DNA of 64,000 nucleotides, taken from assembly GCA_027065695.1 (NCBI GenBank), contig JAMONP010000049.1, positions 1-64,000 of the forward strand. The letters are read 5' to 3'. A model generated the notes under the pieces. It was not told where the DNA came from. It saw only the letters and a program-made list of their open reading frames with translations, and ran no database searches. Made by a program: the position numbers and the translations under genes. Source of the stretch: Desulfuromonadales bacterium (GTDB lineage Bacteria; Desulfobacterota; Desulfuromonadia; Desulfuromonadales; BM103). This document shows, piece by piece, positions 13,755 to 50,005 of this stretch. The number at the start of each line of letters is the position of its first letter. The stretch's first letter is position 1.

Positions 13755-13821
13755 GATTTTGCGTCTCCCGTTCATGTTGCTTGGTTACTGTTTGTTTCGC
13801 CTGATTTGGCCATTTCCGAAT

Positions 13822-16345: not shown

Positions 16346-16431
16346 GGTGATGCCCTTCTTTTGAAGATTGCCCCCCGATCCTCGTCTCAAAGAGCAAACG
16401 AGGACCGGGAAGTTGGTGTTGATTGAACCCT

Positions 16432-17940: not shown

Positions 17941-18002
17941 GTGAGTCTCCTTGTTTTTTCTAGTGGGTGAATGGTATTCGCTGTCTTGTCGGCCTCTTGC
18001 CT

Positions 18003-19109: not shown

Positions 19110-19126
19110 GAGTTTCTCCTTCTTGG

Positions 19127-20956
19127 TCAGCGCTCAATAGTCACGATGCCTGACGAGCCATCGATGCGGAGCTTCATGCCGGTTTTGATTATTTTGGTTG
19201 CGTGTCCGGTGCCGACGATCGCTGGCAGTCCGTATTCTCGGCAGACAATGGCCGCATGGCTCATGACACCGCCTACATCGGTCACGCAGGCCTTGATCTT
19301 GGCAAAGGCCGGTGCCCAGGACGGCGAGGTTGTGGGCGAAACCAGGATCTCCCCCTCCTGCAAGTCACGGATCTCGTTAGCACTGCGGCAGACTCGAGCT
19401 CGGCCCTCGACGATGCCTGGACTGGCGGCAAATCCCTTCAATTCTGTGATGCTATCGGGGTCCGAGACGTCTTGAACTGCCGCCCAGTCGGCCAGGGAAT
19501 TGTTAGTCACCCCCCAAAGCACGATGGTGAAAGGTTCCTGAATTACCTCGGGAGCGGTGCCCAGAGCGGCCGGGGCACTCCAAGCGTGGAATTTTTCCAT
19601 CACCCCCTTGCGCCAGGCGATCTCGGGCGGCCACACTGACGTACCGCGTGGTTTGACCCCGGTGGCCCAGGCCGTGACTACGTCCCAGAGGCCTTGTTTG
19701 ATCTCGTCGCGGCGCAGATACCAGATGTCTTCGATATCTTCGATGAGACCGTGCTCCTTCATGATTGCTGCAACTTCGCGGATCTTTCCCCAGAAGACCG
19801 AATGGAACCAGTGTTCGATGTAGAAGAGATGGTTTTCCACATAGGGGAAGACCGTCCTGGAGGTGCTGAGTAGTTCGTCGAAGGTCTTGCGGTCCTCCTC
19901 CGACTCGATCAGATCGCGGTACTCGGCGGTGATGCGGTCGCGCTCCGCGCGTATCTGCTCCAGAGGACGTTCGATGTCCACCCCCTCCTTGAGTTTCTTG
20001 ATGTAGGTGGCGATTCCCATCAGCGGAATGTTCAGATCGTCGTTCCAGCTACGGTCTTTGTGCGACCAGCCGGTTCCAGAAGAGATGTAGAACCATGGGT
20101 AGCGAGCCTCTTCGTGGCAAGCGAGCCATTCCTGCCCATTTGGCAGCGCCTTGACTGCCGCAGTAACCTCGAGCCATTCCTGGCTGGAAGTGATGGCCTC
20201 ATCGACTCCCAGATCGATGGCTTTTTTGGCCAGCTTCTTCAACTCGTCGTCGGAGCGAAACATGATCACGTCTATGCCCGAGATCATCTGCGTCACCCGC
20301 TGCTGTGGAATACTCGGGAACTGCTTCTGGACGAAATCAAGAAAGAAGACGTAGGCGGCATAACCAAGATTGAGAAATTCAAAATGGTACTGCCAGCACT
20401 TGATGCCGAGATTGATCAGATCGTCGTAAGCCTTGATCAGGTGGTAACCCTTGGATTCGCCCACCGCGTCTGTCACTACGCTGAGTTCTTCGAGCTCAGG
20501 CAAATGAGGAATCTGTAACTCCTCGAGTTCCTTGATGGTAGCTTCGGTCTTTACTTTCCATTTGGCTTCCAGGGCGTCCCAGTTTTTGTAGTAGTATCCG
20601 GCGCGTTCCATGAAGTTCGGAACACGGCGACCAATCTCCTCGGGGTCTTTCACGGCCACCGGCGAGATGTAGACGTAGCCGTTGATTATTCGATGGTCGA
20701 CGCCGCGCACCGGCGGGATCTGGAAAATGCGGTTATTGAATTGGGACAGGGCCAAATACCAGGCTTCGTCCCAGATTGTGTCGAAAGGATAGAGCGGCTC
20801 GGGGTAGTGAAGACCATCGTAGAACCAGAACGACTCTTCCTCATGTGCTTTGCGTTCTGGATCGTCGGTGCTGAACTTGTATTGGTACGGATACATCCTT
20901 TCCCAGCCTTCGGTCCCGGGAATGTCTTTGATCTCATGTGGACTTGGAAATTTCAT
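19127..20956 (-). CDS. pps1: Phenylphosphate synthase phosphohistidine subunit (Pps1)
   Basis: A 609-residue protein that would phosphorylate phenol. The last 100 residues are the mobile phosphohistidine domain of PEP-utilising enzymes: KGFAASPGIVEGRARV, then GGVMSHAAIVCREYGLPAIVG with the catalytic His567. The Thauera aromatica counterpart is also about 70 kDa and uses a histidine at almost the same position (569, from memory). The N-terminal two thirds have no PEP synthase ATP domain; that is supplied by Pps2. It is the first gene of the phenol operon, about 155 bases downstream of a sigma54 start. A rifampicin-phosphotransferase-like enzyme is the less likely alternative. Confidence 0.88.
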   Translation of the reverse strand: MKFPSPHEIKDIPGTEGWERMYPYQYKFSTDDPERKAHEEESFWFYDGLHYPEPLYPFDTIWDEAWYLALSQFNNRIFQIPPVRGVDHRIINGYVYISPVAVKDPEEIGRRVPNFMERAGYYYKNWDALEAKWKVKTEATIKELEELQIPHLPELEELSVVTDAVGESKGYHLIKAYDDLINLGIKCWQYHFEFLNLGYAAYVFFLDFVQKQFPSIPQQRVTQMISGIDVIMFRSDDELKKLAKKAIDLGVDEAITSSQEWLEVTAAVKALPNGQEWLACHEEARYPWFYISSGTGWSHKDRSWNDDLNIPLMGIATYIKKLKEGVDIERPLEQIRAERDRITAEYRDLIESEEDRKTFDELLSTSRTVFPYVENHLFYIEHWFHSVFWGKIREVAAIMKEHGLIEDIEDIWYLRRDEIKQGLWDVVTAWATGVKPRGTSVWPPEIAWRKGVMEKFHAWSAPAALGTAPEVIQEPFTIVLWGVTNNSLADWAAVQDVSDPDSITELKGFAASPGIVEGRARVCRSANEIRDLQEGEILVSPTTSPSWAPAFAKIKACVTDVGGVMSHAAIVCREYGLPAIVGTGHATKIIKTGMKLRIDGSSGIVTIER

Positions 20957-21120
20957 TTCTTGTTTCCCTTTTATTTTGTGAGTGCCTGGTTACAAGCATG
21001 AATGTTATTCCCTCGGGCTCAACTTGAAGCTCTTAAAGATTACTAAAAAACGGTGTTTTAAATTCTTTACAGAAATGCTGTAAGCCAACCTTAAAATTCT
21101 TGACCGCCACCCTAGTTGTT

Positions 21121-21136
21121 AGCACTTGGCGTGCCA
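21121..21136 (-). promoter_or_regulatory. sigma54 (-24/-12) promoter of the phenol operon
   Basis: The minus-strand reading is TGGCACGCCAAGTGCT, which matches the TGGCACR-N4-TTGCW consensus at every defined position except one (G for T before TGC). Transcription should start near 21110, about 155 bases before pps1. A gene for a sigma54 activator of the phenol-sensing DmpR/XylR class lies upstream at 22025-23788. Confidence 0.82.
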
Positions 21137-21280
21137 AACATTGTTATTTTGTTAAAAAGTCTGGGTTCACTAGCCTGGTAGGCTACTTAAACCAGTGATG
21201 TCATGCGGGATTAAAAATCTATTGTGCCCGGGGAAATACCGTCAATAAACAGTCAACAGCAGGAAGCAGGTAATCAGCTA

Positions 21281-21337
21281 TTGATCATTTCATGATTTTT
21301 GCTCTGGCAGGATTAGCCAATTTAATCATTTGGTGAA
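21281..21337 (-). promoter_or_regulatory. Paired enhancer-like sites for the phenol regulator
   Basis: TTGATCATTTCATGAT at 21281-21296 and TTAATCATTTGGTGAA at 21322-21337 each match the DmpR/XylR-type site TTGATCAATTGATCAA at 12 of 16 positions. Their centres are 41 bases apart (about four helical turns) and lie roughly 180 and 220 bases upstream of the predicted sigma54 start. Confidence 0.55.
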
Positions 21338-21551
21338 CTGTTGATCGCAGAGAGTCAGACGTCGCCCCGATGGAACGGGGAACAGATTCTGGTTTAACGT
21401 GGATATTCAGACTGACTTCAGCGTTATAGATATCTAACTTTTTGTCGGAAGAATAGTGTAGGTGCGCTGGGTGGAAGGTTCACAAAAACATTGTGCAGGG
21501 GAAGATGGGACATCAGCCGCTGGTGATTTTTTAATCAGGGCACACAGGAAC
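21338..21551. other. Intergenic stretch upstream of the phenol enhancer sites
   Basis: The whole 20957-21551 gap (595 bases) holds no gene. Its pps1-proximal half carries the sigma54 promoter and enhancer-like sites listed separately. In the remaining part I see no convincing further promoter, terminator or open frame. Confidence 0.5.
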
Positions 21552-22028
21552 TCATAATGAGGGTGGCAAGTTCAGATTGATCTCATCACGGTGCCCAAGT
21601 CCGACCTCGTTGTCGATAAAGTAGAGACGTTGCGGGACAATCTTGAACCAACGCACCTTGGCCAGAGCCTTGACTATAGCGGCAGGAGCCTGGGCAAGTT
21701 TGCCGACGACGGGAAACTTCTGACCGTAGAGTCGGCGAGCTGTTCTTTCCTCCTCACCAGAGATCTCAGTGACAACTCCTTCGATCTGCAGCCCCTTGAT
21801 TTCCAGCCAGTCGGTGTAGTCTTCCTGTATAGTTACTGCCACGCGAGAGCATTGAGCCAGATTCAAACAGTGACGGCTGGTTGGTGAGGAGAGGAAATAA
21901 AGCGTATAATCGGCATGGACATAAAAGACTGCGGCAGCCCACAGATCATTGTCGCCATGTGTGGCCAGGGTGGCTACCTGATGATCACGGAGATAACCTT
22001 GCACGCGTTCATTTAGCCCTTTCTTCAT
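21552..22028 (-). CDS. Pyridoxamine 5'-phosphate oxidase-like flavin-binding protein
   Basis: A 158-residue split-barrel protein of the PNPOx-like FMN-binding superfamily. The N-terminal VATLATHGDNDLWAAAVFYV and LYFLSSPTSRHCLNLAQCSRVAVTI are the usual strands around the flavin pocket, and the C-terminal KIVPQRLYFIDNEVG is typical. The start codon overlaps the stop of the sigma54 activator gene (ATGA), so it is co-translated with the regulator. Whether it senses flavin or heme, or modifies an aromatic, cannot be told from sequence. Confidence 0.82.
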   Translation of the reverse strand: MKKGLNERVQGYLRDHQVATLATHGDNDLWAAAVFYVHADYTLYFLSSPTSRHCLNLAQCSRVAVTIQEDYTDWLEIKGLQIEGVVTEISGEEERTARRLYGQKFPVVGKLAQAPAAIVKALAKVRWFKIVPQRLYFIDNEVGLGHRDEINLNLPPSL

Positions 22029-23788
22029 TGAGACGGATTGATCAACGGGTCGTTGGCAGGGCCATCGTCACTCCCAGCAAACTCGTCTTCCTGGAGGCGT
22101 CCGAGGCGATAAGCGAGTTGCGGCCGGGTCAGACCGAGAAGCCTGGCTGCTGCGGAGAGGTTACCGCGCACCTTGTCCACGGCAGTTTCGACCAACATGG
22201 CCTCAACCTGCTTCAAGGTCATGGCACCGCTGAAAACCATCTCACAAAGCTCTTTTCCTGACTCTCCAGGATTAGTATCCAAACTGCCTTTACTGTTAAG
22301 TACAAATTCCAGTGGGCTATCATCACTGTAGGACGAAAACATGTGGTTAACCTCTATCCGCCCCCCTGATGGCGCAAGCAGAACACCTCGGTCGACCATG
22401 TTCTGCAATTCACGGATGTTGCCTGGCCAAGAATAACCAAGGAGCGCCCGCTTGCTCTTATCAGTGAAGCCGCGCAATTTCTTGCCATGAATCGCAGAAT
22501 ATTTTGCCAGGAATCTATTAGCAAGGGGTGAAATGTCTTCCTTGCGCTCTCGGAGAGGCGGGATGTTGATCTGGTAGGCGTTGAGCCGGTAATATAGATC
22601 AGCGCGAAACTTGCCGGTTTTGACCAGAGACTTCAGGTCAACGTTGGTCGCCACGACCAGACGCACATCAACCTTGCGGACTTTCTCATCACCCAGACGT
22701 TCAATCTCCCCTTCCTGCAGGACCCGCAGGAGCTTGGCCTGTGCCGAGAGCGGCAGGTCACCGATCTCATCGAGAAATAGCGTTCCGCCACTGGCTCGTT
22801 CGAAGCGGCCGGGGCGAGACGCGAGGGCACCTGTAAAGGCACCCTTTTCAACGCCGAAGAGTTCTGATTCCACCAGATCGGGAGGGATGGCAGCGCAATT
22901 GATGGCAACGAACGACTTGCTGCTACGAGGCCCCATGTCATGCAAAGAACGAGCAAAGACCTCTTTTCCAACGCCTGTTTCACCAAGTAATAAAACTGTA
23001 ATCCGGCTATTGACCGCCTGTTTGAGAAGTTCATATGCGGCAAGGAAAGTCGGCGCATTGCCGACGATATCAGAGGGGAGTTTATCCTCCTTGCCAATAG
23101 CTGAGCGCAATTGCACGACCTGGGTTTGCAGATCTATGAGCTGTTCGACAATCGATTCCTGATTAAAAAAGTTAACTTGCTCGGCACCATCCTCCCATTC
23201 CTCAATGGGTTTGCCAATAATGCGACAGTTTTTATCCCCCTTGCCGTAACAATCAACTTCCTTGTACAAAATTGGCCGCCCCATGAAAGCCGAAGTATAA
23301 CCACAGGCGTAGCCAATCTGGGTCCAGCAGACGGAATCTGAATTGATTCCATATTGGCGACGGTGCCAGAGTGCTTCCCAAGAATGTTCCCAGAGAAACT
23401 CGCCATAAAACTCGCCGGCATCTCGATTGAACTCGACCTTGATAGGGGTTACCTTGACTTTTCCTTCCAACATATGGAGTTTCGGGCCAGTCATGAAAAT
23501 TTCTGTATCATTAGCACTCGGGGTACGCGTGCGTATGAGTTCGGCGTCGCGGGCACCGGAAGCATAGCCCATACGGCTAAGAAGACCGCGAGCACGAGCC
23601 ATACCAAGAGTCTCGATTAACTCTTTACGCAGGGTGGCCTGAGCCTCGACGTGGATCAAGAGCATACGGTGCTCATGAAGCCAGATCTGGCCGCTTTCAG
23701 CACAAAACTGCACCTGTGAGCGCAAGTCATCACTAATCGGGTTCAGGGTAGCTCGTTGCCGTTTGCTGACTTTGGACATAAGTACCAT
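22025..23788 (-). CDS. sigma54-dependent activator of the DmpR/XylR (phenol-sensing) class
   Basis: A 587-residue enhancer-binding protein. The N-terminal third is the XylR_N aromatic-sensing domain followed by a V4R domain (QIGYACGYTSAFMGRPI, VDCYGKGDKNCRI, about 155-195). The AAA+ domain (about 245-470) has Walker A GETGVGKE, the sigma54-contacting GAFTGA loop and GGTLFLDEIGDLP. The C-terminus is a Fis-like helix-turn-helix (LSAAARLLGLTRPQLAYRL). Members of this class bind phenols directly and activate sigma54 promoters, matching the promoter at 21121-21136. The start is uncertain: two ATG codons lie four codons apart and neither has a strong ribosome site. Confidence 0.93.
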   Translation of the reverse strand: MVLMSKVSKRQRATLNPISDDLRSQVQFCAESGQIWLHEHRMLLIHVEAQATLRKELIETLGMARARGLLSRMGYASGARDAELIRTRTPSANDTEIFMTGPKLHMLEGKVKVTPIKVEFNRDAGEFYGEFLWEHSWEALWHRRQYGINSDSVCWTQIGYACGYTSAFMGRPILYKEVDCYGKGDKNCRIIGKPIEEWEDGAEQVNFFNQESIVEQLIDLQTQVVQLRSAIGKEDKLPSDIVGNAPTFLAAYELLKQAVNSRITVLLLGETGVGKEVFARSLHDMGPRSSKSFVAINCAAIPPDLVESELFGVEKGAFTGALASRPGRFERASGGTLFLDEIGDLPLSAQAKLLRVLQEGEIERLGDEKVRKVDVRLVVATNVDLKSLVKTGKFRADLYYRLNAYQINIPPLRERKEDISPLANRFLAKYSAIHGKKLRGFTDKSKRALLGYSWPGNIRELQNMVDRGVLLAPSGGRIEVNHMFSSYSDDSPLEFVLNSKGSLDTNPGESGKELCEMVFSGAMTLKQVEAMLVETAVDKVRGNLSAAARLLGLTRPQLAYRLGRLQEDEFAGSDDGPANDPLINPSQ

Positions 23789-24163: not shown

Positions 24164-26221
24164 TCAATCGAGAATCAGGAGAGTATGGCCAATATCAACA
24201 GCATCTCCTTCCTTGATAAAGAGTTGACCTATAGTTCCATCTCGATCAGCAATGATTTCGTTCTCCATTTTCATTGCCTCAAGAATAATGAGCAGGTCGC
24301 CCTCCTGAACCTGCTGCCCAGTAACAACCTCAAGCTTCCAGATATTACCGGCGAGCGGAGCAACCACACCATTTTCGACGACTGCAGGAGCACTCGCGAC
24401 AGCTACGGAAGCGGCCGAAGTCAAGCCGCTATTGCTGCCGACAAAGCTCAAAAGAATTGCACCAATATCAACGGCATCACCCTCATTAACCTGAATCTCT
24501 GCGATAACACCTGATTTCTCAGCCACAACTTCATGTTCCATCTTCATTGCTTCGAGAATAAAGAGCAGGTCTCCTTCTTCAACTTCCTGCCCCGGTGTCA
24601 CCTCTATTTTCCATATATTCCCGGCAAGAGTGGCGTTGACTGTGTCTGCTGCGACGGTAGCAACAGTTGCCGCCGGTGCTCCAGCAGCAACAGCGGCAAC
24701 GGCTGCTGCAGCCGCACCCTCTGCACTGGCAACCTGAACCACAAAACTCTTTCCACCACCAGTCACGGTGTAGACATCACCACCGGCAAGCGCTGAAACT
24801 GACTCCGCAGGGGCATCTTCCTTACCTGTCGGAACGGGCTCAAAGGCATCGGGATTGCCACGGTTTTCGATAAATTTCAATCCCACCTGTGGAAACAGCG
24901 CATAAGTTAGAACATCCTCGATCTCGTTCTCTGCCAGGGTGAGTGCCTTTTCTGCTGCTATTTCGCAAAGTTCAGCGGTAAGCTTCTCCACTTCAGATTC
25001 AAGCAGATCGGCCGGACGACAAGTTATCGGCGTGGCACCCTTCAGGATTTTTTCCTGAAGCTCCTTGTTCACCGGTGCCGGGGTCGTCCCGTATTCACCT
25101 TTAAGAACAGCAGTCGTTTCTTTAGTGACTGCCTTGTAGCGCTCTCCAGACAGAATATTTAACACCGCCTGACTGCCGACAATCTGCGAGGTCGGGGTGA
25201 CCAGAGGCAGAAAACCGAGATCTTCGCGAACCAGGGGAATCTCTTCAAGCACCTGATCGATCTTGTCGCTGGCTCCCTGTTCACGCAACTGGCTTTCCAT
25301 GTTGGTCAGCATGCCACCAGGGACCTGCGCCATGATAATTCGCGAATCTATTCCTTTAAGAGCGCCCTCGAACTTCACGTACTTTTTACGCACCTCGCGG
25401 AAATAAGCGGCAATCTCCTGTAGCGGAGCCAGATCAAGGCCGGTCTCATGCTCGGTTCCATCGGTCATGGCGACCAGGGTTTCCGTGGGGGAATGCCCAT
25501 AAGTCAGGCTCATGGAAGAGATTCCGGTGTCGACACCGTCAATACCAGCCTCGATAGCCTTCAGGTAGGCGGAAGTAGACATGCCAGTCGTAGCATGACA
25601 GTGCATGTGAATGGGAATATCCAAAGTTTTCTTAAGTTTTTTAACCAACGCGTAGGCCGCGTAAGGGGTAATCAGACCAGCCATATCCTTGATACAGAGC
25701 GAATGAGCCCCCATATCCTCGATAGTCTTGGCCAGATCCACCCACTTGGCAAGGGTATGAACCGGGCTAACGGTGTAGGAGATGCAACCCTGGGCATGTT
25801 TGTCCTGCCTGATAACCGCCTTGATGGCCGTCTCGAGGTTGCGGGGATCGTTCATGGCATCAAATACACGGAAAACATCGATGCCGTTAACAGCCGCCCG
25901 CTCGACGAATTTCTTAACAACATCATCAGCATAATGACGGTAACCCAGGATATTCTGGCCCCGGAAGAGCATCTGCTGCGGGGTGTTGGGCATTGCCTTT
26001 TTCAGGGCCCTGAGACGTTCCCATGGGTCCTCACCCAGATAACGGATGCAGGAGTCAAAAGTGGCTCCACCCCATGTTTCCAGGGACCAGTAGCCAACCT
26101 TATCCAGTTTCTCTGCGATTGGCAGCATATCGTTCAGTCGCATGCGAGTAGCGAACAGAGACTGATGCGCATCACGTAGTACCAGTTCAGTGATACCCAA
26201 TGGTTTCTTGACCTTACTCAT
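24164..26221 (-). CDS. oadA: Oxaloacetate decarboxylase alpha / pyruvate carboxylase B-type subunit with two biotinyl domains
   Basis: A 685-residue carboxyltransferase. The TIM-barrel domain (about 1-300) has the family start [17 protein letters not shown] and the metal-binding HMHCHATTG. The conserved PYC_OADA domain follows (about 300-470). The tail holds two biotin carrier domains with EAMKMEHE (Lys560) and EAMKMENE (Lys651), separated by alanine/valine-rich linkers; one domain is normal. It could decarboxylate oxaloacetate with a sodium-pump partner or serve as pyruvate carboxylase B; neither partner is next to it. The start follows GAGGTAGG. Confidence 0.88.
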
Positions 26222-26488: not shown

Positions 26489-26893
26489 TTAAAACAGGAG
26501 TCTGTGTCGCACTCGCTTTGGCGCATGGGCCATGATTGAAGCTATGACGAAGACCAGCAGTACTGTTTCCTGCGGTGGTAAAAAGCCATGGAACGCGGCT
26601 CCCATAAAGATGATTTTCATCAGCGTGGTCATACCCGAGAGTTCCCGATAAGATTGACGATGCCGCATCCATTCGGAGATAAAGAGCAAACCACCGCTGA
26701 GAAAAGCGACCACAACATATAGCATCGGTGGCCCAGGAATGGCATCGATTAGGTAGGCCGCAAGAAAGACTGCAGCCCCAACCTGATGCACCGCCCTGAT
26801 AAGAAGAGAAAGATGAAGAACCCAGTAGGGACGGTAGCCAATCCTTCCCATTTTCACGTTGTCTTCACAAGCGTTTCCGGGCTTTTCCCGCAT
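26489..26893 (-). CDS. Small integral membrane protein, unknown
   Basis: A protein of up to 134 residues with about four hydrophobic segments (for example VLHLSLLIRAVHQVGAAVFLAAYL, of which only part is needed, MLYVVVAFLSGGLLFI, MKIIFMGAAFHGFL and VLLVFVIASIMAH). I do not recognise a family. Composition and helix spacing look like a genuine protein rather than a chance frame. The start is unclear: the first ATG (26893) and the one at 26851 (MGRIGYRPYW) both lack a strong ribosome site. It stands alone between the biotin protein and bamC. Confidence 0.55.
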   Translation of the reverse strand: MREKPGNACEDNVKMGRIGYRPYWVLHLSLLIRAVHQVGAAVFLAAYLIDAIPGPPMLYVVVAFLSGGLLFISEWMRHRQSYRELSGMTTLMKIIFMGAAFHGFLPPQETVLLVFVIASIMAHAPKRVRHRLLF

Positions 26894-27138: not shown

Positions 27139-27708
27139 TCAGCCTTTAGATGTTCTGGCAATCTGCGCAACTATCTTAGCGACCTTTTCTATGCCATGCT
27201 TGCTTATTAACGATTCCAACCCTAGATCTATCTCATCGCGCCTCACTTCTTTTACATCTACCACCTCTTCCCTTTCCACGTAAGTCAGGGCGTCACAACA
27301 GCACACCTGAACACACATCGGTTCTGCCAGCGGCGGAACCGATTCACACATATCGCATTTTAGAGGTAGATCGGAATCTGGTTCTTTGAACAGGTCTCTG
27401 GACGGGCAGGAAACAGTACAGAAACTACATTGTGAGTAATCCTTACCGTTAATCGTATACGTATTTCTGCCAGCGCATTCAGCTGACGAATAATCACCCG
27501 CCCGGATTGGCAGATAGACATCCTTACGGTCTTCCACAATCACCCGAATACGTGATCTCGCCGGATTGGTGCTGCTGAATTTCGGCTCGGCGTGAAACCC
27601 GGAACATGCCATTTCGCAGGCGCGACAACCAATGCATTTATCAAGATTGACCTTTATTTCCTTAATAATTCTTTTTTTCAACCCATTACTCACAGCTTCC
27701 CCCGTCAT
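27139..27708 (-). CDS. bamC: Class II benzoyl-CoA reductase iron-sulfur subunit BamC
   Basis: A 189-residue ferredoxin-like protein with several [4Fe-4S] cysteine groups: CIGCRACEMAC near residue 25, CSFCTVSC, CDMC and CVQVCCCDA. The segment FHAEPKFSSTNPARSRIRV is typical of BamC. In the class II complex, BamC carries electrons to the tungsten subunit BamB, which is encoded directly upstream (48-base gap). The start has AGGGA seven to ten bases upstream. A HycB-like ferredoxin of another aldehyde oxidoreductase is the alternative, but the pair with BamB argues against that. Confidence 0.88.
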   Translation of the reverse strand: MTGEAVSNGLKKRIIKEIKVNLDKCIGCRACEMACSGFHAEPKFSSTNPARSRIRVIVEDRKDVYLPIRAGDYSSAECAGRNTYTINGKDYSQCSFCTVSCPSRDLFKEPDSDLPLKCDMCESVPPLAEPMCVQVCCCDALTYVEREEVVDVKEVRRDEIDLGLESLISKHGIEKVAKIVAQIARTSKG

Positions 27709-27755: not shown

Positions 27756-29690
27756 TCACTCTAGGATTCCCCGCTGGATGAAGTCTTTGCTCACGTAATT
27801 CAGGCCCAACTTGTCTAAGGTCTCCCTAGTCGGAATACCATCATTATTCCAGCCTTTAAACTCGTAATACATATCAAGCAGCTTCTGCTCGTTCTCGGGT
27901 TCACGCTTCTGCCAATGGTCTTCCGGGGGCCTCTCGTCAGCCCTTCTCAGACCTCTCCTGATATTCAGGGCCCGAACCAGGTTCCGGTTCCGCCTGGCCA
28001 CCTCCCAGAGTTCGTCCGAATCAAGCTCGATCCCGGACGCACGCGTAATGAAATCCGGCATATTGTAGATATGATAAGGTGGACGACCGCCAAACTGGCC
28101 CCGGAATGAAGAGAGAAAAGCACAGGTACCGATGGCATCGTCAATGTAATGCATAGCCTCGTTCCAATCGCAGATATGGACAGCAGCCTCCAATGATACG
28201 TTGGTTCGCGGTTCCCACTCCATAAACCACTTCTTGAACCGCTCAGGGGCGGCATCCCAATTCTTGACGAACTCTTCCCGCTCTTTCTTATCAACAATTG
28301 GTGCCTGTGGGTAGGATCCTTCTATCTGGGTGATATTCATTTTCTCACCGGTGGCATACATCAGAAAATAAGGATAGTTAACGTAACCCAACTTGATCGG
28401 CACCTGCTCAAATTTCTTTATGGTATTATGATCGTATTCTTCTGCACCATTACCAATCTGGCGAGCCGCCGCATAGATGCCATTGGCCAGGACATCGCCA
28501 ATTCCTTCGCGTCTGGCGATCTTTTCAACCAGATAGAAAAAGCGAGAAGTGTTAATATTATAGCCCTCGACAGTCTCGCCATCGGCACCCGGGAAGTCTG
28601 GCAGATCCTTGTCGGTAAGGATTCCCGCCTCATAGAGTTCGATTGCGAAGGCAATCGTCTGTGGAGTTGAGTAGGCATCCATCCCGTACTCCTGGGTGAT
28701 GCCAATAATATTGTAGTCAAAGTCGAGGTCACCAAAGGAGCCCATCGCGTAGGTCAGCTTGCTGTAGCACTTCTGAAAGTAAGGCATCCGACCCGGATAG
28801 TTGATTGCCTGATGGCAGTCCTTTGGGCAGTTATGACAACCGGTCCAGCGCATCCGCAATTTGTCTTCCAGCGATATCCACTCCTCTTCCATCTCCTTGG
28901 TAAAAAACTGATTTCTCCGGGTGCGGGCATTGCCCCAGGCAAAGTTGTCGACGTGAAATTCGTCGCCTTCGCCGTGGGCCATAGAATCACCACAATCTTT
29001 ATTATCGTACATCTCTTTGTACATGGGGATGCTGATCTCCGCCAACTCAGTCGGCTGGGCGATATAGACATCCTTTGTTCCGCGAACGACGATCGCCTTG
29101 ATCCGCTTGTCACCCATGATCACGCCGACACCACGAGAGGCACTGGAGTTGGCATGCTCAATACTGGCCATATATACCCGGTTTTCACCAGCCAGGCCGA
29201 TAGAAGCCACCTGGGCATTGTCGTCACCTACCTCCTCCTTCAGGATAAGTGCTGTTTCCTGAGCACCCTTGCCACGAAGATGGGTCGCATCACGTATTTC
29301 CACCTTGTCATTATTTATCCACAGGTAGACCAGATCGTCAGCCTTGCCGCGAAAAATGAACTTGTCGTAACCGGCGTACTTCATCTCTGGCCCAAAAAAA
29401 CCTCCGAACAAAGAGTGCGAATAACGACCAGTTTGTGGCGAAAAAGTATCAACCGACGTACGATTAGCGCCGGGAACTGGTGTGGAATGCAAAAGACCGG
29501 TACTGAAGATGAGGAGATTCTCGGGATCAAGAGGGTCGATTTCAGGCGGAACCCTGTCCCATAATATCTTCGCGGCAGTACCCTGCCCCCCCAGGTAAAG
29601 CGCAGTCAATTTTGGGTCCGTCGCGACTCTTTCAATGCTTCCCCTAGAGAGATCGATCTCTAAATCAAACCCTGTCTCCGCGTACCTCAT
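27756..29690 (-). CDS. bamB: Class II benzoyl-CoA reductase catalytic tungsten subunit BamB
   Basis: A 644-residue member of the aldehyde:ferredoxin oxidoreductase family. It carries bis-pyranopterin tungsten and a [4Fe-4S] cluster (CHNCPKDC, about 279-286). It resembles Geobacter BamB closely from the first residues (MRYAETGFDLEIDL, ILWDRVPPE) to the end (LNIRRGLRRADERPPEDHW, GIPTRETLDKLGLNYV, FIQRGIL). BamB dearomatises benzoyl-CoA to a cyclic dienoyl-CoA. The start follows AGGAGCAAG. The genes for the other Bam subunits (D-I) are not in the window. Expression is probably set by the operator-bearing promoter about 80 bases upstream. Confidence 0.9.
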   Translation of the reverse strand: MRYAETGFDLEIDLSRGSIERVATDPKLTALYLGGQGTAAKILWDRVPPEIDPLDPENLLIFSTGLLHSTPVPGANRTSVDTFSPQTGRYSHSLFGGFFGPEMKYAGYDKFIFRGKADDLVYLWINNDKVEIRDATHLRGKGAQETALILKEEVGDDNAQVASIGLAGENRVYMASIEHANSSASRGVGVIMGDKRIKAIVVRGTKDVYIAQPTELAEISIPMYKEMYDNKDCGDSMAHGEGDEFHVDNFAWGNARTRRNQFFTKEMEEEWISLEDKLRMRWTGCHNCPKDCHQAINYPGRMPYFQKCYSKLTYAMGSFGDLDFDYNIIGITQEYGMDAYSTPQTIAFAIELYEAGILTDKDLPDFPGADGETVEGYNINTSRFFYLVEKIARREGIGDVLANGIYAAARQIGNGAEEYDHNTIKKFEQVPIKLGYVNYPYFLMYATGEKMNITQIEGSYPQAPIVDKKEREEFVKNWDAAPERFKKWFMEWEPRTNVSLEAAVHICDWNEAMHYIDDAIGTCAFLSSFRGQFGGRPPYHIYNMPDFITRASGIELDSDELWEVARRNRNLVRALNIRRGLRRADERPPEDHWQKREPENEQKLLDMYYEFKGWNNDGIPTRETLDKLGLNYVSKDFIQRGILE

Positions 29691-29772
29691 CTTCTTGCTC
29701 CTTCTGACAGTTCGTCAGACTTATCCCTGCTACCACTTTACAGATACCTACTGCTAACAAACACGCTATTTA

Positions 29773-29808
29773 TGTAAACAGGTACCACAATACCATTTTG
29801 ACTGTCAA
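29773..29808 (-). promoter_or_regulatory. bamB promoter with shared palindromic operator (site A)
   Basis: On the minus strand, -35 TTGACA (29803-29808) and -10 TACCTG (29779-29784) are 18 bases apart. The operator (29773-29794) overlaps the -10 and reads TGTA-N4-GGTACC-N4-TACC. The predicted transcript starts about 80 bases before bamB. The same operator occurs at six other promoters in the window. Confidence 0.6.
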
Positions 29809-30238: not shown

Positions 30239-30688
30239 CTATTCGAGTTCTTTCCACTTATAATCGATGAGCTCCAAAAGGACGCCATTCATTTTTTTGG
30301 GATGGAGAAAAGCAAATTCGCAATCTCGGAAGGGGCGAGCCTTGCCGGTATCATCGTCGGCGAGAGGCTCAGGGTTCGGAATAAATGGATAGTCCTTTTC
30401 CTCAAGCTCCCGAACAGCTTCGCGGGTGTTCTCCACATTAAAGCTGATGAGCATGACTCCTTCACCGTTCTTCTCGATCCACTTACCCACAGGGCCGTCT
30501 GGTGAGGTGGACTCCATGAGTTCAAAACCTACGCCAGCCAGCCAGTAGCGGGCGACCCGGATCTTTTCAGGTTCATCAATGTAAGGATCATCCGGTTCCG
30601 ATTTACCAAGGATGGGCTCCCACACTTTCCTCGCGGCGTCGAGATCTTTTACGGCAATACAAATATGGTCGATCTGTTTACTCTTCAT
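30239..30688 (-). CDS. VOC-family protein, methylmalonyl-CoA epimerase/glyoxalase-like
   Basis: A 149-residue vicinal-oxygen-chelate protein. The first module begins with IDHICIAVKDLDAARKVWEPILG, whose histidine is a usual metal ligand, and WLAGVGFELMES supplies the paired glutamate. The second module ends NGVLLELIDYKW with another glutamate. The layout matches methylmalonyl-CoA epimerase, which links propionyl-CoA and succinyl-CoA, but other CoA-thioester or aromatic-ring roles exist in this superfamily. The start follows GAGGAATAT. It has its own promoter with the shared operator, so it appears to belong to the same regulon as bamB and padB. Confidence 0.8.
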   Translation of the reverse strand: MKSKQIDHICIAVKDLDAARKVWEPILGKSEPDDPYIDEPEKIRVARYWLAGVGFELMESTSPDGPVGKWIEKNGEGVMLISFNVENTREAVRELEEKDYPFIPNPEPLADDDTGKARPFRDCEFAFLHPKKMNGVLLELIDYKWKELE

Positions 30689-30806
30689 AGTATATTCCTC
30701 AGCTTGTACGGGCTCTCATGCTCAAGAAAGTGACCCGTTTATATTCTGCCATGTCAATAGCCAACGGACAAACAACCTACTGGCGATTCTCAAATTAAAC
30801 TATCAC

Positions 30807-30841
30807 GGTATTTCTGTACCACATTACCCTTTAACCGTCAA
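30807..30841 (-). promoter_or_regulatory. VOC gene promoter with shared palindromic operator (site B)
   Basis: Minus strand: -35 TTGACG (30836-30841), a 17-base spacer and -10 TACAGA (30813-30818). The operator at 30807-30828 reads GGTA-N4-TGTACC-N4-TACC. The leader to the VOC start would be about 117 bases. Confidence 0.6.
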
Positions 30842-30926
30842 GGCTTTATTCCCGTTAAGATAGTTGCGGTTTACACTTTTTCTAACGGGTTTATTTCCAA
30901 GTCTATTTCTGGCATAAGAAAACAAC

Positions 30927-30963
30927 TTGCACCAGAGCAGCAATCATGGTACTAGAATACCAT
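30927..30963 (+). promoter_or_regulatory. GNAT-Rrf2 promoter with shared palindromic operator (site C)
   Basis: Plus strand: -35 TTGCAC (30927-30932), a 17-base spacer and -10 TACTAG (30950-30955). The perfect inverted repeat ATGGTA-N6-TACCAT (30946-30963) overlaps the -10 and fits the right-hand part of the shared operator; the left RGTA arm is poor. It would drive the GNAT gene and the Rrf2 regulator behind it. Confidence 0.55.
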
Positions 30964-31118
30964 ATTATGTCTTTTGCATAGAAAAACAACCTCAAGCAAA
31001 AAGCAACAATTCATTTATAATTTTTATGGGTTAGATCCCAGCAGTGTAACTTTGCTTGCGTCGTTGCCTGCGCACTCAAGTAGATCTGCACTGGATATAA
31101 CCTCAACGGGATATTGAT

Positions 31119-31565
31119 ATGTCAGACCAGATCACCATCCGCAATGCCGTACCAACCGACCTTAATGTAGTTATCTCACTGGATAGCGTGGGTACTGAAA
31201 AGGAAAAACCAGCCTACTGGAAAGATGTGTTTGACCGTTATCTGAACGCAGGGAATAGTGACCGGATAATTCTTGTCGCTGAAACAAGTGAGGATGTTGT
31301 CGGTTTCATCGTTGGTGAAGTGCGCGCCTGGGAATTTGGTTCACCTCCTTGTGGCTGGGTGTTCGCTTTGGGCGTCTCGACGAAGACCCGTGAAATTGGC
31401 ATTGGCCACCTCCTGTTCAAGGAGCTATGCTTACGTCTGAAACAGGCTGGAGTAACTTCTGTGCGGACGATGATAGCCCGGAAGCAAAAGCTTGTCCTGT
31501 CGTTTTTCCGCAGCCAGGGCTTGCGAACAGGGCCATATATCGAACTGGAAAAACAGCTTGATTGA
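31119..31565 (+). CDS. GNAT-family N-acetyltransferase
   Basis: A 148-residue GNAT protein. The acetyl-CoA-binding region is LGVSTKTREIGIGHLLFKELCLRLKQAGV in part (about 87-115; core motif REIGIGHLL), preceded by the strand VVGFIVGEVRAWEFG. The target is unknown. It is the first gene of a pair with the Rrf2 regulator (21-base gap). In several anaerobes GNAT proteins acetylate CoA ligases of aromatic degradation, so control of an acyl-CoA ligase is a reasonable idea but is not shown here. Confidence 0.82.
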   Translation: MSDQITIRNAVPTDLNVVISLDSVGTEKEKPAYWKDVFDRYLNAGNSDRIILVAETSEDVVGFIVGEVRAWEFGSPPCGWVFALGVSTKTREIGIGHLLFKELCLRLKQAGVTSVRTMIARKQKLVLSFFRSQGLRTGPYIELEKQLD

Positions 31566-31586
31566 CTTTATACACAGGAATCAACC

Positions 31587-32000
31587 ATGAAGTTACAAAA
31601 AGCCAGCCTATTTGCCCTCTATGCCGTACTCGAGCTTGCCAGCGATCCCGAACGCCAGCTCTCAGCCACTGATATCGCGGATAATTATGGAATCTCCACT
31701 CACCATCTCGCAAAAATCCTACGTACACTTGTTCGTTCTGGCCTGGTCCAGGCCGTGCGTGGTGCAGGTGGCGGGTATCGATTTGCCGGGTCAGTCAATC
31801 GAACAACACTACTCGATGTTATAGATCTATTTGAAACTCTGGACTCCGAGATCGAGAACCCGAATCTCGGCAATCAAGCTGGCCGACCTATCATGGAAGA
31901 ACTTCAAAGCATTTCCAACGAGATCGGCGACCTGACCAAAGCAATCCTCGACACGATAACTCTGGAAACGGCCCTCAACAGCAGTCGTCAACAAAACTAA
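31587..32000 (+). CDS. Rrf2-family transcriptional regulator
   Basis: A 137-residue Rrf2 protein. The winged helix occupies the N-terminal half (KASLFALYAVLEL, ATDIADNYGISTHHLAKIL, VRGAGGGYRFAG). A leucine-rich helix (LLDVIDLFETLDSE) follows. The three cysteines that hold an Fe-S cluster in IscR or NsrR are absent; the protein has no cysteine at all, so it probably senses something other than Fe-S status. The start follows AGGAATC. Because the promoter of this gene pair carries the same operator as bamB, padB and others, it is the best candidate in the window for the regulator that binds it. Confidence 0.88.
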   Translation: MKLQKASLFALYAVLELASDPERQLSATDIADNYGISTHHLAKILRTLVRSGLVQAVRGAGGGYRFAGSVNRTTLLDVIDLFETLDSEIENPNLGNQAGRPIMEELQSISNEIGDLTKAILDTITLETALNSSRQQN

Positions 32001-32153
32001 CAGACCAACAGATTCGGCAGTATCTAGACGAAAGAGTCTCGACTACCGCCATGGCCATTTTTCCTGACAACTGTGCTTGAAATCAGCTTCCCTTCGCCAT
32101 TGTCAACTCCTCTTGAAAACAACAGCCTGCCACACCAAGCTTCTGACCGGTCT

Positions 32154-32969
32154 TTACACGCCGCCCACAGCAGAGAGTAACGGCGGGAGATCAATTCTCT
32201 CCGGGCAGGTGTAAATATTCAATTTGTCACCTCGGGCAAAACCAATGACTGTAATATTCAGGTCCTCAGCAAGAGCCAGGGACAAGTCAGTGGGAGCAGA
32301 GCGGGCCACAAGAATGGGGATATTCATCTTGGCCACCTTCAGAAGAATTTCCGATGATACCCTGCCACTGAAGAAGAGGACATGGTCAGAAAGATCCAGA
32401 TTCAGCAGGTAGGCCCGACCAAGGATCTTATCGAGGACATTGTGCCTTCCTATATCGTAGCAGGTAAAGCTAACCTCCCCAGAATGCCCCACTCCGCCAT
32501 TATGGATTCCACCCGTCTCCTTGAAGAGAGAAGAGTGTTTATCGAGATAGTTGGCATAATAGACAGCTTCATTGAGACCTATCTTTATGGCAGACTTCTG
32601 AACCTTGACCAGAGAGGCATCGTTTTCGAAATTGAAAGAAGCCCTGCTTTTGCCGCAACAGGCTGACATAACGCGCCGGTTCATAGCTTCTTTCTGGGCC
32701 GGTCTTGGCTGGCCTTCAACCCGAATGGTATTTTCCTCGCAGTGATGACCGATGCTGTAAATATCACCACGGTCACGAACGAAGCCTTCGGAAATCAGGA
32801 ATCCGATCGTCAACTCCTTGATATGATTCGGTGAGCAAAGAACTGTAATGATCTCTTCTTTGTTGAAGTATAAAGTCATCGGAATTTCCCGAACTATTGT
32901 GTCCTCGGTCGGCCGATGGTCCCTACCCCTGACCTTGATAATGGGTAATGTTACGGTTTCGTCTATCAT
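32154..32969 (-). CDS. fdhD: FdhD, sulfurtransferase for molybdenum/tungsten enzymes
   Basis: A 271-residue FdhD protein, needed to sulfurate the bis-pyranopterin cofactor of formate dehydrogenases. Landmarks are LTIGFLISEGFV, a cysteine pair in MSACCGKS (in place of the CxxC of the E. coli protein), CYDIGRHNVLDKILG and SGRVSSEILLKVAKMNIPILVARSAPT in part. The ATG at 32969 has AGGGATG upstream; a GTG two codons earlier is less likely. Neighbouring bamB and padB also encode bis-pyranopterin enzymes, so this copy could serve them as well as a formate dehydrogenase encoded elsewhere. Confidence 0.93.
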   Translation of the reverse strand: MIDETVTLPIIKVRGRDHRPTEDTIVREIPMTLYFNKEEIITVLCSPNHIKELTIGFLISEGFVRDRGDIYSIGHHCEENTIRVEGQPRPAQKEAMNRRVMSACCGKSRASFNFENDASLVKVQKSAIKIGLNEAVYYANYLDKHSSLFKETGGIHNGGVGHSGEVSFTCYDIGRHNVLDKILGRAYLLNLDLSDHVLFFSGRVSSEILLKVAKMNIPILVARSAPTDLSLALAEDLNITVIGFARGDKLNIYTCPERIDLPPLLSAVGGV

Positions 32970-40221: not shown

Positions 40222-41088
40222 TTAAAATTTCTTCTGCAGCCGTGCCCAGTCGTGATCAACTTCCGCCTGGATAAGTTCAATATTCTCGAGCGACAAATGC
40301 CGATAGCGTTTTTGCGTAGTAACATAATCGGCGACAGAAAGACCATTTGGGCCATAATTCAAGGTGTAGAACTCACCATTTTCTACTTCGTAGAGGGGAT
40401 AGATACCCGACTGAACAGCCAAACGGGAGGTTTTTGGCCCAGCACTATCAGGAACCCCCCACCCCGTCAGGCAGGGTGTCAGGATATTAATAAATCTCAA
40501 GCCACCCTTTATTTCCATCGCCCTCTTTACCTTACGAGCAAGGTCATCCGGATAACCGATGGTCGCGGTTGCCATATAAGGAATATTATGAGCAACCATA
40601 ATTTCCGGCACATTTTTCTTCGGTGAAAGCTTACCGGCAGGCGTTGAAGTGGTAAACGCCATTGAAGGTGTTGCCGAGCTCTTCTGAGAACCGGTGTTCA
40701 TATAGCCTTCATTGTCGAGACAGATATAGATAATATCTTCATTTCTCTCGGCAGCGGCTGACAGAGCCTGGAAACCGATATCATAGGTGCCACCGTCACC
40801 CGCAATAGCCACTACATTGGTATGATCGTTGCCTTTTGATACAAGTGCTCGCTTGATCCCGGCAGCCGATGCGGCACTCGCTTCCAGAGTTGTCTGGTAG
40901 ACGGGGATACCCATCGAACTGAGCGGTTGCGGTCCTGAAATAATTGCAATACAGGATGGGGGGACCACAGCAATAGCATCTCTGCCGAGAGTATTGAGGA
41001 CAAACCGAATCGCCAAGGCTTCACTGCAACCGGGGCAGGCAGCATGTCCGGAACTAAAAACTTTTTCTTCGTTTATTTCATAACCCAT
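40222..41088 (-). CDS. padI: Phenylglyoxylate:acceptor oxidoreductase TPP-binding beta subunit (PadI)
   Basis: A 288-residue thiamine-diphosphate subunit of the 2-oxoacid:acceptor oxidoreductase family. CPGCSEALA near residue 18 and the TPP/magnesium motif GDGGTYDIGFQALS with LDNEGYMNTGSQ (about 98-135) are characteristic. In Azoarcus evansii the 34-kDa PadI subunit of phenylglyoxylate dehydrogenase is of this type and decarboxylates phenylglyoxylate to benzoyl-CoA. It is the last gene of the run, seven bases from padG. Taken alone it could be a pyruvate or indolepyruvate enzyme; the preceding PadBCD genes decide the call. Confidence 0.85.
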   Translation of the reverse strand: MGYEINEEKVFSSGHAACPGCSEALAIRFVLNTLGRDAIAVVPPSCIAIISGPQPLSSMGIPVYQTTLEASAASAAGIKRALVSKGNDHTNVVAIAGDGGTYDIGFQALSAAAERNEDIIYICLDNEGYMNTGSQKSSATPSMAFTTSTPAGKLSPKKNVPEIMVAHNIPYMATATIGYPDDLARKVKRAMEIKGGLRFINILTPCLTGWGVPDSAGPKTSRLAVQSGIYPLYEVENGEFYTLNYGPNGLSVADYVTTQKRYRHLSLENIELIQAEVDHDWARLQKKF

Positions 41089-41094
41089 TTATCT

Positions 41095-42252
41095 TCACCC
41101 CTTCCAGACAGAGTGGGCCGAGGGTTTTTCACCCATGGCAGATTGGACCATTTCTTTAATGGCAGCGGGAGTGATATTTGTTCCTCCGACCCCAGCAAGA
41201 TACCCGTGAATTTCCGGCGCATCTTCCAGCCCATACAAAGCAGCCTTAAGCTCTTGGTAGAGAATGCCGCCAGTTCCCGGAGCAAAGTTGCGGTCCAGAA
41301 CCATGACCTTGGGGATTCCAGCCAGGATCTCGCGGACATCAGCGATCGGAAAAGGCCTGAAGAGCTTGATCTTGAACAAGCCGACCGGAAGCCCATCAGC
41401 TCTCAACTCGTCGACAGCATCCCGAACGGTTCCGGTCATGCTTCCCATGGTGGCTATGATAAATTCAGCGCCATCGCAACGATATTGCTCATGAATACCA
41501 TAACCTCTGCCAACCAGTTCTTTCATCTCCTGATCAGCCTTTTTAGCAACCTGGAGAACTCGCTCCATGGCATCGCCCATATCCCGGCGATGGTTCTGAA
41601 ACATGACCTGCGAAACCGTATTCCCCCAGGACTCGCCGATCTGAGGATCGAGCCGGTGTGGTGGATTGAAGTCAGGCAGGTAGGCATCAACCTGATCCTG
41701 GGTGGCAAGTTCAACTGCCTCCATGGAGTGGGAGACGTAAAAAGCTTCATGAATGACCATGGCTGGGAGCAAGACCTGCTCAGCGACCCGAAAGGCCTGT
41801 AAGGTAGTGTCGTGAGACTCCTGACCGTTTTCACAGTAATACTGAATCCAGCCAGTATCTCTCTGCGCAAGACTGTCTGTTTGATCGGGCCAGAACCCCC
41901 AGGGGGAGCCTAGCGTCCGATTGACATTGAACATAACGATCGGGGCACGCGCACCGGCAGCATAATGAAGCATCTCGTGCATCAGCAGCAGCCCCTGCGA
42001 AGCAGTGGCGGTAAAGACCCTGACCCCGGTCAAAGAGGCGGTGATCGCTGCGGCCATGGCCGAATGCTCGGATTCCATGGTCATAATCTCGCCAGTCATC
42101 TCGCCTGCCGCATGGAACTCGGTGATCAACTCGAGAATCGGCGTCTGCGGTGTAATGGGGTAGACAGGCATCACGTTCGGATTGACCAGCTTGACCGCAT
42201 GCGAGACAGCATGATTGCCACTAAGAAGCAGTCTATTGCTATCTGCTTTCAT
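41095..42252 (-). CDS. padG: Phenylglyoxylate:acceptor oxidoreductase alpha subunit (PadG)
   Basis: A 385-residue pyruvate-ferredoxin-oxidoreductase alpha-type subunit. The N-terminal domain has VNPNVMPVYPITPQTPILELI, here key motif YPITPQTP, then MESEHSAMAAAITASLTGVRVFTATASQGLLLMHE in part (ESEHSAMAA). The C-terminal transketolase-like domain includes LFRPFPIADVREIL and VLDRNFAPG. The ATG at 42252 follows GGAGG, and its ATGA overlap with padH implies coupling. The length matches PadG (about 45-49 kDa) of the Azoarcus enzyme. Confidence 0.85.
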   Translation of the reverse strand: MKADSNRLLLSGNHAVSHAVKLVNPNVMPVYPITPQTPILELITEFHAAGEMTGEIMTMESEHSAMAAAITASLTGVRVFTATASQGLLLMHEMLHYAAGARAPIVMFNVNRTLGSPWGFWPDQTDSLAQRDTGWIQYYCENGQESHDTTLQAFRVAEQVLLPAMVIHEAFYVSHSMEAVELATQDQVDAYLPDFNPPHRLDPQIGESWGNTVSQVMFQNHRRDMGDAMERVLQVAKKADQEMKELVGRGYGIHEQYRCDGAEFIIATMGSMTGTVRDAVDELRADGLPVGLFKIKLFRPFPIADVREILAGIPKVMVLDRNFAPGTGGILYQELKAALYGLEDAPEIHGYLAGVGGTNITPAAIKEMVQSAMGEKPSAHSVWKG

Positions 42253-43916
42253 TTCGTTTCCTCCTTGACACCCATCGCTCCCCGGGGGCATTCCTCCAGG
42301 CAACAGCCACAACCTTTACAGTATTGCTCAAGAACCTTGTAATACAACGGCGCATCGGAATCTTTTATGATGGCCATGTCAGGGCAGAAGATGGAACAGT
42401 TGTCACATTCGATGCAAGAACCGCAACTGAAGCAACGCTTGGACTGATCAAACGCCTGTGCGTCCGTCAGCCCCAGTCTGATCTCGTCAAAGCCAAACTT
42501 TCTGATCTCCACAGCAACTTTGTCACGCTCGCCCGGTTCCTGGGTCGGAAAGTAAAAGGTATTGATATCATCAATGGCTACCTCTTTAGCCTCGTCCGCA
42601 AAACCTTCCTCGACCACAATCTTCTGACCGAGATATCTGACGATACTATTGGCGGCTCTTTTCCCGTCCCCGACTGCGGTGGCAACAAAACGTTCGCTAC
42701 TGGCAACGTCACCGGCAGCAAAGATCCCGACGCGGCTGGTCCGATAGTCGTTGTCGACCTCAACCATCCCCCTGGCAACCTGTACCCGGCCTTCCCAGTC
42801 GACCAACTCAGGATCCTGCCCAACGGCCAGAATAACGGTATCGGCCTCCAGGGTAAATTCCGTGCCGGCAATCTCAATGGGTCGAATCACTCCGGGCGGA
42901 ACGTCCTGGTCGAGTTCTACCTTGATACAGTGAAGTAAAAGGGTCCCGGAAAGATCCTCAACTGCTTTGACCATGGCACCGTCATTCAGGATGGCACCCT
43001 CTTCGATCACATCCTCAATCTCGTCTTCAGGAGCGGGCATAACCTCTCTGCCTTCCAAAGCCAGGATTTCAACCTGCCGCGCCAACCTGAGCGCCGACCC
43101 GGCAACATCCATTGCCACGCTGCCACCACCGACAACCAGAACCTTACGGCCGAGCTCCATGGGGGCATCCAGTCTAACACTACGGAGAAAAGTGATCCCG
43201 TCCAGCACTCGGCTATCGTCTTTGGAAAACTGGGGGAGCCTTTTCGGCTCATGTGCTCCAAAGGCGATAAAAATGGCCGAGTAACCCTGATCGAGTTCAC
43301 CCAGGTCTTCCCCGGTCAGCTTACGTCCAGTGACAACCTCTATTCCAAGATCGACGATTCTTTTGGTCTCTGCAGCAACCATTTTCTTGGGCAGACGGAA
43401 CTCAGGGACACCGTAACGCAGAACTCCACCCAACTCGGGATTAGCATCGAAGATGGTCACTTGGACACCTTTACGACGCAGCTGATAGGCACAAGAGAGG
43501 CCAGCAGGTCCCCCGCCAATCACAGCAACCTTCTGATCCAATTCGTCTGAGGGGGCAGGGAATTCCCAGCCTTCCCGTATCGCCATATCGCCGACATACT
43601 GTTCCAGGGCATTAATCGAAACGGCACCGTCATACTCGGTCCGGTTGCATGCACCTTCGCAAGGACGATGACAGGTTCTACCTATAGCTGCGGGAATCGG
43701 ATTGTTTTCTACCAGGGTTTGCCACGCTTCCTTGAATTTCTCATTGCGTATCTGCTGTACCCATACCGGGATATCCCCATCGACGGGACAGACCCCATAA
43801 CAGGGGGCTGGCCGGTGTTCGTGCACGGCAATAGCAGTACGCCAGGTACCGGTATTTAATATATCCGTCGATCCAGTGGTCCAGATCGACGGGACTCTTT
43901 TCACTGTACCCGTCAT
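42249..43916 (-). CDS. padH: FAD/NAD oxidoreductase subunit with fused ferredoxin domain (PadH-like, PadF fused)
   Basis: A 555-residue flavoprotein. An N-terminal GltD-type cysteine domain (CHRPCEGACN) is followed by dinucleotide folds (GGGPAGLSCAYQL and GGGSVAMDVAG). A C-terminal ferredoxin-like tail has CFSCGSCIECDNCSIFC and CKGCGCCLEECP. In Azoarcus the FAD subunit PadH and the small Fe-S subunit PadF are separate; here both functions look fused in one chain. It would transfer electrons from phenylglyoxylate oxidation to NAD+. It starts directly after the padE stop and overlaps padG by four bases. Confidence 0.83.
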   Translation of the reverse strand: MTGTVKRVPSIWTTGSTDILNTGTWRTAIAVHEHRPAPCYGVCPVDGDIPVWVQQIRNEKFKEAWQTLVENNPIPAAIGRTCHRPCEGACNRTEYDGAVSINALEQYVGDMAIREGWEFPAPSDELDQKVAVIGGGPAGLSCAYQLRRKGVQVTIFDANPELGGVLRYGVPEFRLPKKMVAAETKRIVDLGIEVVTGRKLTGEDLGELDQGYSAIFIAFGAHEPKRLPQFSKDDSRVLDGITFLRSVRLDAPMELGRKVLVVGGGSVAMDVAGSALRLARQVEILALEGREVMPAPEDEIEDVIEEGAILNDGAMVKAVEDLSGTLLLHCIKVELDQDVPPGVIRPIEIAGTEFTLEADTVILAVGQDPELVDWEGRVQVARGMVEVDNDYRTSRVGIFAAGDVASSERFVATAVGDGKRAANSIVRYLGQKIVVEEGFADEAKEVAIDDINTFYFPTQEPGERDKVAVEIRKFGFDEIRLGLTDAQAFDQSKRCFSCGSCIECDNCSIFCPDMAIIKDSDAPLYYKVLEQYCKGCGCCLEECPRGAMGVKEETK

Positions 43917-44462: not shown

Positions 44463-44482
44463 GCCTAATGCTCCCCTGACGA

Positions 44483-45364: not shown

Positions 45365-45374
45365 GAGATTTCTC

Positions 45375-45986: not shown

Positions 45987-45998
45987 AATCTTTATCTC

Positions 45999-48515: not shown

Positions 48516-48569
48516 GGGTCTTCCTCCTCTTCTTTACAACGATGCCAGATATGATCGAAGCACCCAGAC

Positions 48570-48604
48570 AGTATTATGGTACCTATTTACCTTTTTAGTG
48601 TAAA
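48570..48604 (-). promoter_or_regulatory. padB promoter with shared palindromic operator (site D)
   Basis: Minus strand: -35 TTTACA (48599-48604), a 17-base spacer and -10 TACCAT (48576-48581). The operator at 48570-48591 reads AGTA-N4-GGTACC-N4-TACC, close to a perfect palindrome. The predicted leader to padB is about 55 bases. Confidence 0.65.
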
Positions 48605-49849: not shown

Positions 49850-50005
49850 TAGATCCCTCGTTGATAAATAGGTAATAGTGAAATGAGTCCTATTTCCAGC
49901 TTGAAGACTTCTTCACCAGAGACAGACTCTGCCATTAATTGAGCACCGAACGCACTACCCTGACACCAGCCTAAGTTGTTGACCCACTGTTCAAAATATG
50001 CTTTA

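Follow-up and report, generated by a model that had tools for sequence, protein, structure and literature searches.

Which protein acts at the promoter of the GNAT-Rrf2 gene pair between positions 30927 and 32000, and which other genes share its operator? We addressed this question in a 64,000-nucleotide stretch of a Desulfuromonadales genome (BM103; assembly GCA_027065695.1, contig JAMONP010000049.1, positions 1 to 64,000 of the forward strand), here called the window. Few regulators of anaerobic aromatic degradation have been described in strict anaerobes (PMC6678401). The original prediction for this locus named the Rrf2 protein as the likely owner of an operator within its own promoter (site C) and allowed for an aromatic or acyl-CoA ligand.

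The Rrf2 protein lacks cysteine and is encoded with a GNAT acetyltransferase

The Rrf2 open reading frame (31587 to 32000, plus strand) encodes a BadM-like regulator of 137 amino acids, none of which is Cys. Membership in the Rrf2 family was clear from Pfam (PF02082, 85.6 bits, cutoff 30, 4.2e-24) and NCBIfam (TIGR00738, 94.1 against a cutoff of 73.3). The protein fell far under the cutoffs of the IscR, NsrR, and RsrR equivalog models and lacks Cys ligands. No Cys is conserved across an alignment of 28 homologs, which, together with the confirmed absence of Cys from the protein itself, supports the earlier claim that it does not carry an IscR/NsrR-type cluster. An AlphaFold2 model computed with the 28 homologs (pLDDT 90.3) has the Rrf2 winged-helix fold with a long dimerization helix; an earlier model with close homologs alone as input was poor (pLDDT 58.6). 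The best Foldseek matches in the PDB were all Rrf2 proteins, the nearest being CymR, with IscR, RsrR, and NsrR also among the top matches. Invariant residues among the homologs are concentrated in the recognition helix (S-x-HHLAK) and the wing (GxGGGY). GNAT-linked homologs form one clade in the phylogenetic tree, apart from Cys-bearing paralogs (99/97), and long branches separate the groups. A separate Cys-bearing Rrf2 paralog is encoded on contig C85 of the same genome.

The partner gene (31119 to 31565, plus strand) encodes a BadL-like GNAT acetyltransferase (Pfam Acetyltransf_1). It ends 21 nt before the Rrf2 open reading frame on the same strand, and cotranscription of the two genes is therefore likely. 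A scan of genome contigs for Rrf2 homologs returned 42 loci, 40 of them close homologs. At all 40 of these, a GNAT gene adjoins the Rrf2 gene, in genomes that range from Desulfuromonadia to metagenome-assembled genomes of Alpha-, Beta-, and Gammaproteobacteria. Two copies of the Rrf2 ortholog are present in each of genomes G002 (L003 and L072) and G032 (L006), and one of the G032 copies lies directly 5′ of bcrC. Near the Rrf2 gene in ten compared loci is a gene for a 134-amino-acid membrane-like protein with no family match (26489 to 26893 in the window).

A predicted palindromic operator lies over the promoter of the pair

Site C (30939 to 30962; ATGGTACTAGAATACCAT starting at 30946) overlies the core promoter of the GNAT and Rrf2 genes, a position that is conserved. 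The −35-like element of this promoter, TTGCAC (30927 to 30932, plus strand), was recognized in the sequence and by comparison with many orthologs, in which the GGTACC core is preceded, 17 nt upstream, by CTTG[TC] and the distance to the start codon is variable. Because a plain sigma-70 consensus scan of positions 30700 to 32160 did not flag the GNAT-Rrf2 promoter, its assignment rests on conservation. The fixed spacing between CTTG[TC] and GGTACC implies that the operator covers the −10 region, as expected of a self-regulating repressor.

The short form GGTA-N6-TACC was rejected as the operator: it is not rare genome-wide, with 43 exact copies compared to 41 for a reversed control. We therefore adopted the longer palindrome around GGTACC that was found when the GNAT promoters of orthologs were compared, and 46 sites from other genomes yielded an operator matrix with the consensus TGGTATTATGGTACCATAATACCA. 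Under this matrix, drawn from other genomes, site C scores 19.8; in 297 kb of Markov sequence, 0.0 sites are expected to reach 18. GNAT promoters of orthologs in other genomes carry the site C palindrome too. The presence of a palindromic site in the Rrf2/GNAT promoter, as originally predicted, is thus confirmed by sequence, matrix score, and conservation in orthologs, and autoregulation is supported by the constant placement of this site over the core promoter.

For counts across genomes, the refined pattern GTATTnnGGTACCnnAATAC was used with at most one mismatch. A 22-mer at one mismatch was discarded, as it also matched a distinct element that is conserved in relatives lacking the ortholog; the refined consensus excludes that element. 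A palindrome different from the operator, GGTAATATGGTTCCAAGTTACC, is conserved in four genomes of the same genus (L035, L036, L040, and L041), three of which are without the ortholog.

Predicted operators precede aromatic-degradation genes

The matrix was used to scan 297 kb of the 3.4-Mb genome, and ten sites scored 14.6 or higher, where 0.4 would be expected to reach 14. Seven of these (A to G) lie in the window, which was given, whereas the other three, on contig C65, come from stretches that were mostly picked for earlier pattern matches, so that their share is favored. Site A (29772 to 29795; score 21.5) is predicted before a BamB/BamC-like operon, 82 bp from the start of the gene. The first gene (27756 to 29690, minus strand) encodes a BamB-like tungsten enzyme, a paralog of class II benzoyl-CoA reductase. 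Its product scored 794 bits against the solved BamB (4z3w) and 224 bits against aldehyde oxidoreductase, which rules out a plain aldehyde oxidoreductase. It can also be ruled out as the main BamB, being 59% identical to the BamB of G032, to which the copy on contig C44 is 88% identical. The BamB-like protein is conserved at 81 to 89% in G002, G003, and G032 and is about 55 to 60% identical to the more typical BamB of those genomes. On its 3′ side is the gene for a BamC-like ferredoxin-type protein (27139 to 27708, minus strand; Pfam 4Fe-4S), with 51 to 61% identity to proteins that adjoin bamB elsewhere. The genome's own bam operon, on contig C44, has only a marginal site (score 10.7).

Site B (30806 to 30829; score 19.5) is predicted before a gene (30239 to 30688, minus strand) assigned by family profiles to a glyoxalase-fold protein, methylmalonyl-CoA epimerase-like but under the cutoff. 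Site D (48569 to 48592; score 21.1) precedes an operon (40222 to 48515, minus strand) for a molybdopterin oxidoreductase, an Fe-S protein, NrfD, POR subunits, and an NAD(P)-binding protein; a site is retained at the corresponding gene of G002 (L060). By gene content only, this operon is PadBCD/PadEFGHI-like, of the phenylacetate type, and no family model above its cutoff named a substrate for it. Site E (50639 to 50662; score 22.8) stands before a gene for a cyclase-family protein (50785 to 51576, plus strand), weakly arylformamidase-like, and G002 has a site at the same gene. We are less sure of two weaker candidate operators, site F (52640 to 52663; score 16.8), before a gene for a 4HBT-type thioesterase (51970 to 52431, minus strand), and site G (50005 to 50028; score 15.8), before one for a short-chain dehydrogenase (SDR; 49130 to 49849, minus strand).

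The highest-scoring operator of the genome (25.1; L050:11437-11460, contig C65) is flanked by the end of an etfA-like gene and by a 51-amino-acid ribbon-helix-helix open reading frame, and it has no clear aromatic target. Elsewhere in the window, the protein encoded at 24164 to 26221 is carboxylase/decarboxylase-like, has two motifs resembling those for biotin attachment, and recalls the OadA described for Geobacter bemidjiensis. Positions 13149 to 23788 hold a UbiD-family gene with neighbors that resemble a phenol (phenylphosphate) operon. The gene at 22025 to 23788 encodes a MobR-like sigma-54 activator, which scores under the family cutoff.

The operator and BamA co-occur with the Rrf2 ortholog

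In a set of 58 relatives, ten genomes have the ortholog (at least 76% identity), and exactly these ten encode BamA above the cutoff. The 277 genomes examined from the class comprise 44 with both, 7 with the ortholog only, 2 with BamA only, and 224 with neither (Fisher P = 4e-41, overstated because the genomes are related); both BamA-only genomes are incomplete. The operator GTATTnnGGTACCnnAATAC, at no more than one mismatch, was found in 18 of the 51 genomes with the ortholog and in 3 of the 226 without it (Fisher P = 3e-12, overstated for the same reason), and a reversed control pattern gave 0 and 5 hits in these two sets, respectively. The pattern of ortholog, operator, and BamA recurs across several families. 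The operator is loose: 33 of the 51 ortholog-bearing genomes have no site at this threshold, most of them having weaker sites in the GNAT promoter. Genome-wide matches precede bamA, bamB, bcrC, and the GNAT gene, with one each beside etfB and fdhD homologs, and some have no recognized target. In several genomes without detected BamA (L151, L155, L156, and L157), the promoter of the pair keeps its site, a pattern that favors the Rrf2 protein over a bam-specific regulator.

Co-occurrence of ortholog and operator, the test set by the original prediction, was therefore borne out, and with the retention of the site where BamA was not detected, it supports the proposed ownership. Judged from these sequence patterns, the Rrf2 protein very probably owns the predicted 24-base operator before its own genes and those of aromatic degradation.

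Conservation of the pair and its site in Proteobacteria

With up to four mismatches allowed, the GNAT promoter carries a site at 31 of 38 loci in Desulfuromonadia, where dinucleotide shuffles predict 0.4, and at 19 of 33 in Proteobacteria, where they predict 0.2. Both groups were considered in deriving the consensus, which comes mainly from Desulfuromonadia, so the proteobacterial count is the more independent one, though not fully so. Of the 15 proteobacterial genomes that carry the pair, 12 encode BcrC, a subunit of the class I reductase. A genome of the Afifella order has a perfect operator 30 bp from the first gene of the operon that it precedes; this operon contains homologs of had, bamA-like oah, dch, and bcrCBAD and adjoins the GNAT-Rrf2 pair. 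The homologs tested from that order are 46 to 58% identical. Few operator sites were found by scanning the 1.5-kb flanks of bcrC in Proteobacteria, probably because bcrC is often internal to its operon.

A proposed model for control by the GNAT-Rrf2 pair

Family, gene pairing, operator conservation, the predicted regulon, and co-occurrence follow directly from computation. They are best explained, with good probability, by a BadL-BadM-type switch, in which a cluster-free Rrf2 repressor acts on its own and aromatic operons and the GNAT protein probably makes the inducer. The Rrf2 protein would be a ligand-responsive repressor without an Fe-S cluster, whose dimer would bind palindromes like TGGTATTATGGTACCATAATACCA over core promoters and thereby block transcription, both of its own operon and of those for anaerobic aromatic degradation. 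An N-acetylated aminobenzoate or similar small molecule, probably made by the GNAT protein, would release the repressor from its operator. Here we infer DNA binding, and the ligand and the direction of control (repression, not activation) are taken from BadM; the position of the operator over the core promoter agrees with repression. More tentatively, and with a chance that we put somewhat below even, the same cluster-free repressor, single operator, and acetylated-aromatic-amine switch supplied by GNAT may gate ring reduction across phyla, in both the class I (ATP-dependent) and the tungsten class II pathways, and here also phenylacetate-type degradation.

The alternative that survives best keeps the same regulator and operator but makes a pathway acyl-CoA (such as benzoyl-CoA or phenylacetyl-CoA) the inducer and gives GNAT another role. 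The anaerobic benzoate regulators BzdR and BoxR respond to benzoyl-CoA (PMC6079105), the effect of acetamidobenzoate on BadM required 10 mM (PMC6191541), and the window regulon includes a phenylacetate-type operon. Nevertheless, the strict pairing with GNAT and the genetics of BadL in R. palustris favor an acetylated ligand, and we regard an acyl-CoA inducer as unlikely, if still a serious contender. Ownership of the operator by another aromatic-pathway regulator, for example the MobR-like sigma-54 activator (22025 to 23788) or a system of BamVW type, with the Rrf2 operon merely a target, is improbable. Such an activator is indeed present in the window, and any bam-linked regulator would co-occur with BamA too, but the site stays with the Rrf2-GNAT promoter where BamA was not detected and as far as Proteobacteria, and it lies over the core promoter, a place for a repressor and not for a sigma-54 enhancer. 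Least credible by far is an Fe-S type Rrf2 regulator (IscR/NsrR/RsrR-like) beside aromatic genes by accident, since the shared fold, with CymR, IscR, RsrR, and NsrR as top structural matches, is outweighed by a separate deep clade with no conserved Cys, near-perfect co-occurrence of the ortholog with BamA, and a separate Cys-bearing paralog on contig C85.

A BadL-BadM-type switch offers a testable operator, a list of regulon members, and a candidate identity for BgeR. It suggests a single regulator common to two unrelated kinds of benzoyl-CoA reductase, and it raises the question of why an acetylated aminobenzoate would signal benzoate. No description of the operator or regulon was found in the literature searched.

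Comparison with known systems

CymR, an Rrf2 regulator of cysteine metabolism that works without an Fe-S cluster and acts via CysK, has the closest fold to the window model in Foldseek, but the pathway and the partner of the window protein are different. IscR, NsrR, and RsrR share the Rrf2 fold and winged helix with the window protein, which differs from them in having no conserved cysteines and in its operator and neighbors.

In one genome of the class, which may be that of Geobacter bemidjiensis, the single ortholog is transcribed divergently from bamA-bamB-bamC, and a weak site precedes bamA. BgeR of G. bemidjiensis was reportedly treated by Ueki in 2011. It is plausible, with the chances perhaps even, that BgeR and the Rrf2 ortholog are the same protein. 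BgeR represses bamA in that organism (PMC7324539).

The nearest characterized pair is BadL/BadM of Rhodopseudomonas palustris, a switch by which purple bacteria activate anaerobic benzoate degradation. BadM is an Rrf2 repressor of badDEFGAB, which encodes benzoyl-CoA reductase, and BadL is an acetyltransferase that acts on aminobenzoates; acetamidobenzoates at 10 mM weaken BadM binding, and acetylation of BadM itself was not seen (PMC6191541). BadL homologs adjoin Rrf2 genes in Geobacter metallireducens (gmet_2096) and Magnetospirillum magneticum (PMC6191541). The window pair likewise joins an Rrf2 to a GNAT gene (as do all 40 close homolog loci) and is linked to genes of the benzoyl-CoA reductase pathway, through co-occurrence with BamA and with BcrC in 12 of 15 proteobacterial genomes. 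By gene order, partner, and pathway, and not by alignment to the R. palustris proteins, it fits as a relative of BadL/BadM, and by this analogy the ligand guess can be sharpened toward N-acetylated aminobenzoates. The window pair differs from BadM-BadL in that it carries a predicted operator in its own promoter and in that tungsten class II-type BamB/BamC-like genes, as well as a phenylacetate-type operon, are among its predicted targets. This kind of system is known from BadM-BadL, and the window pair is an additional member.
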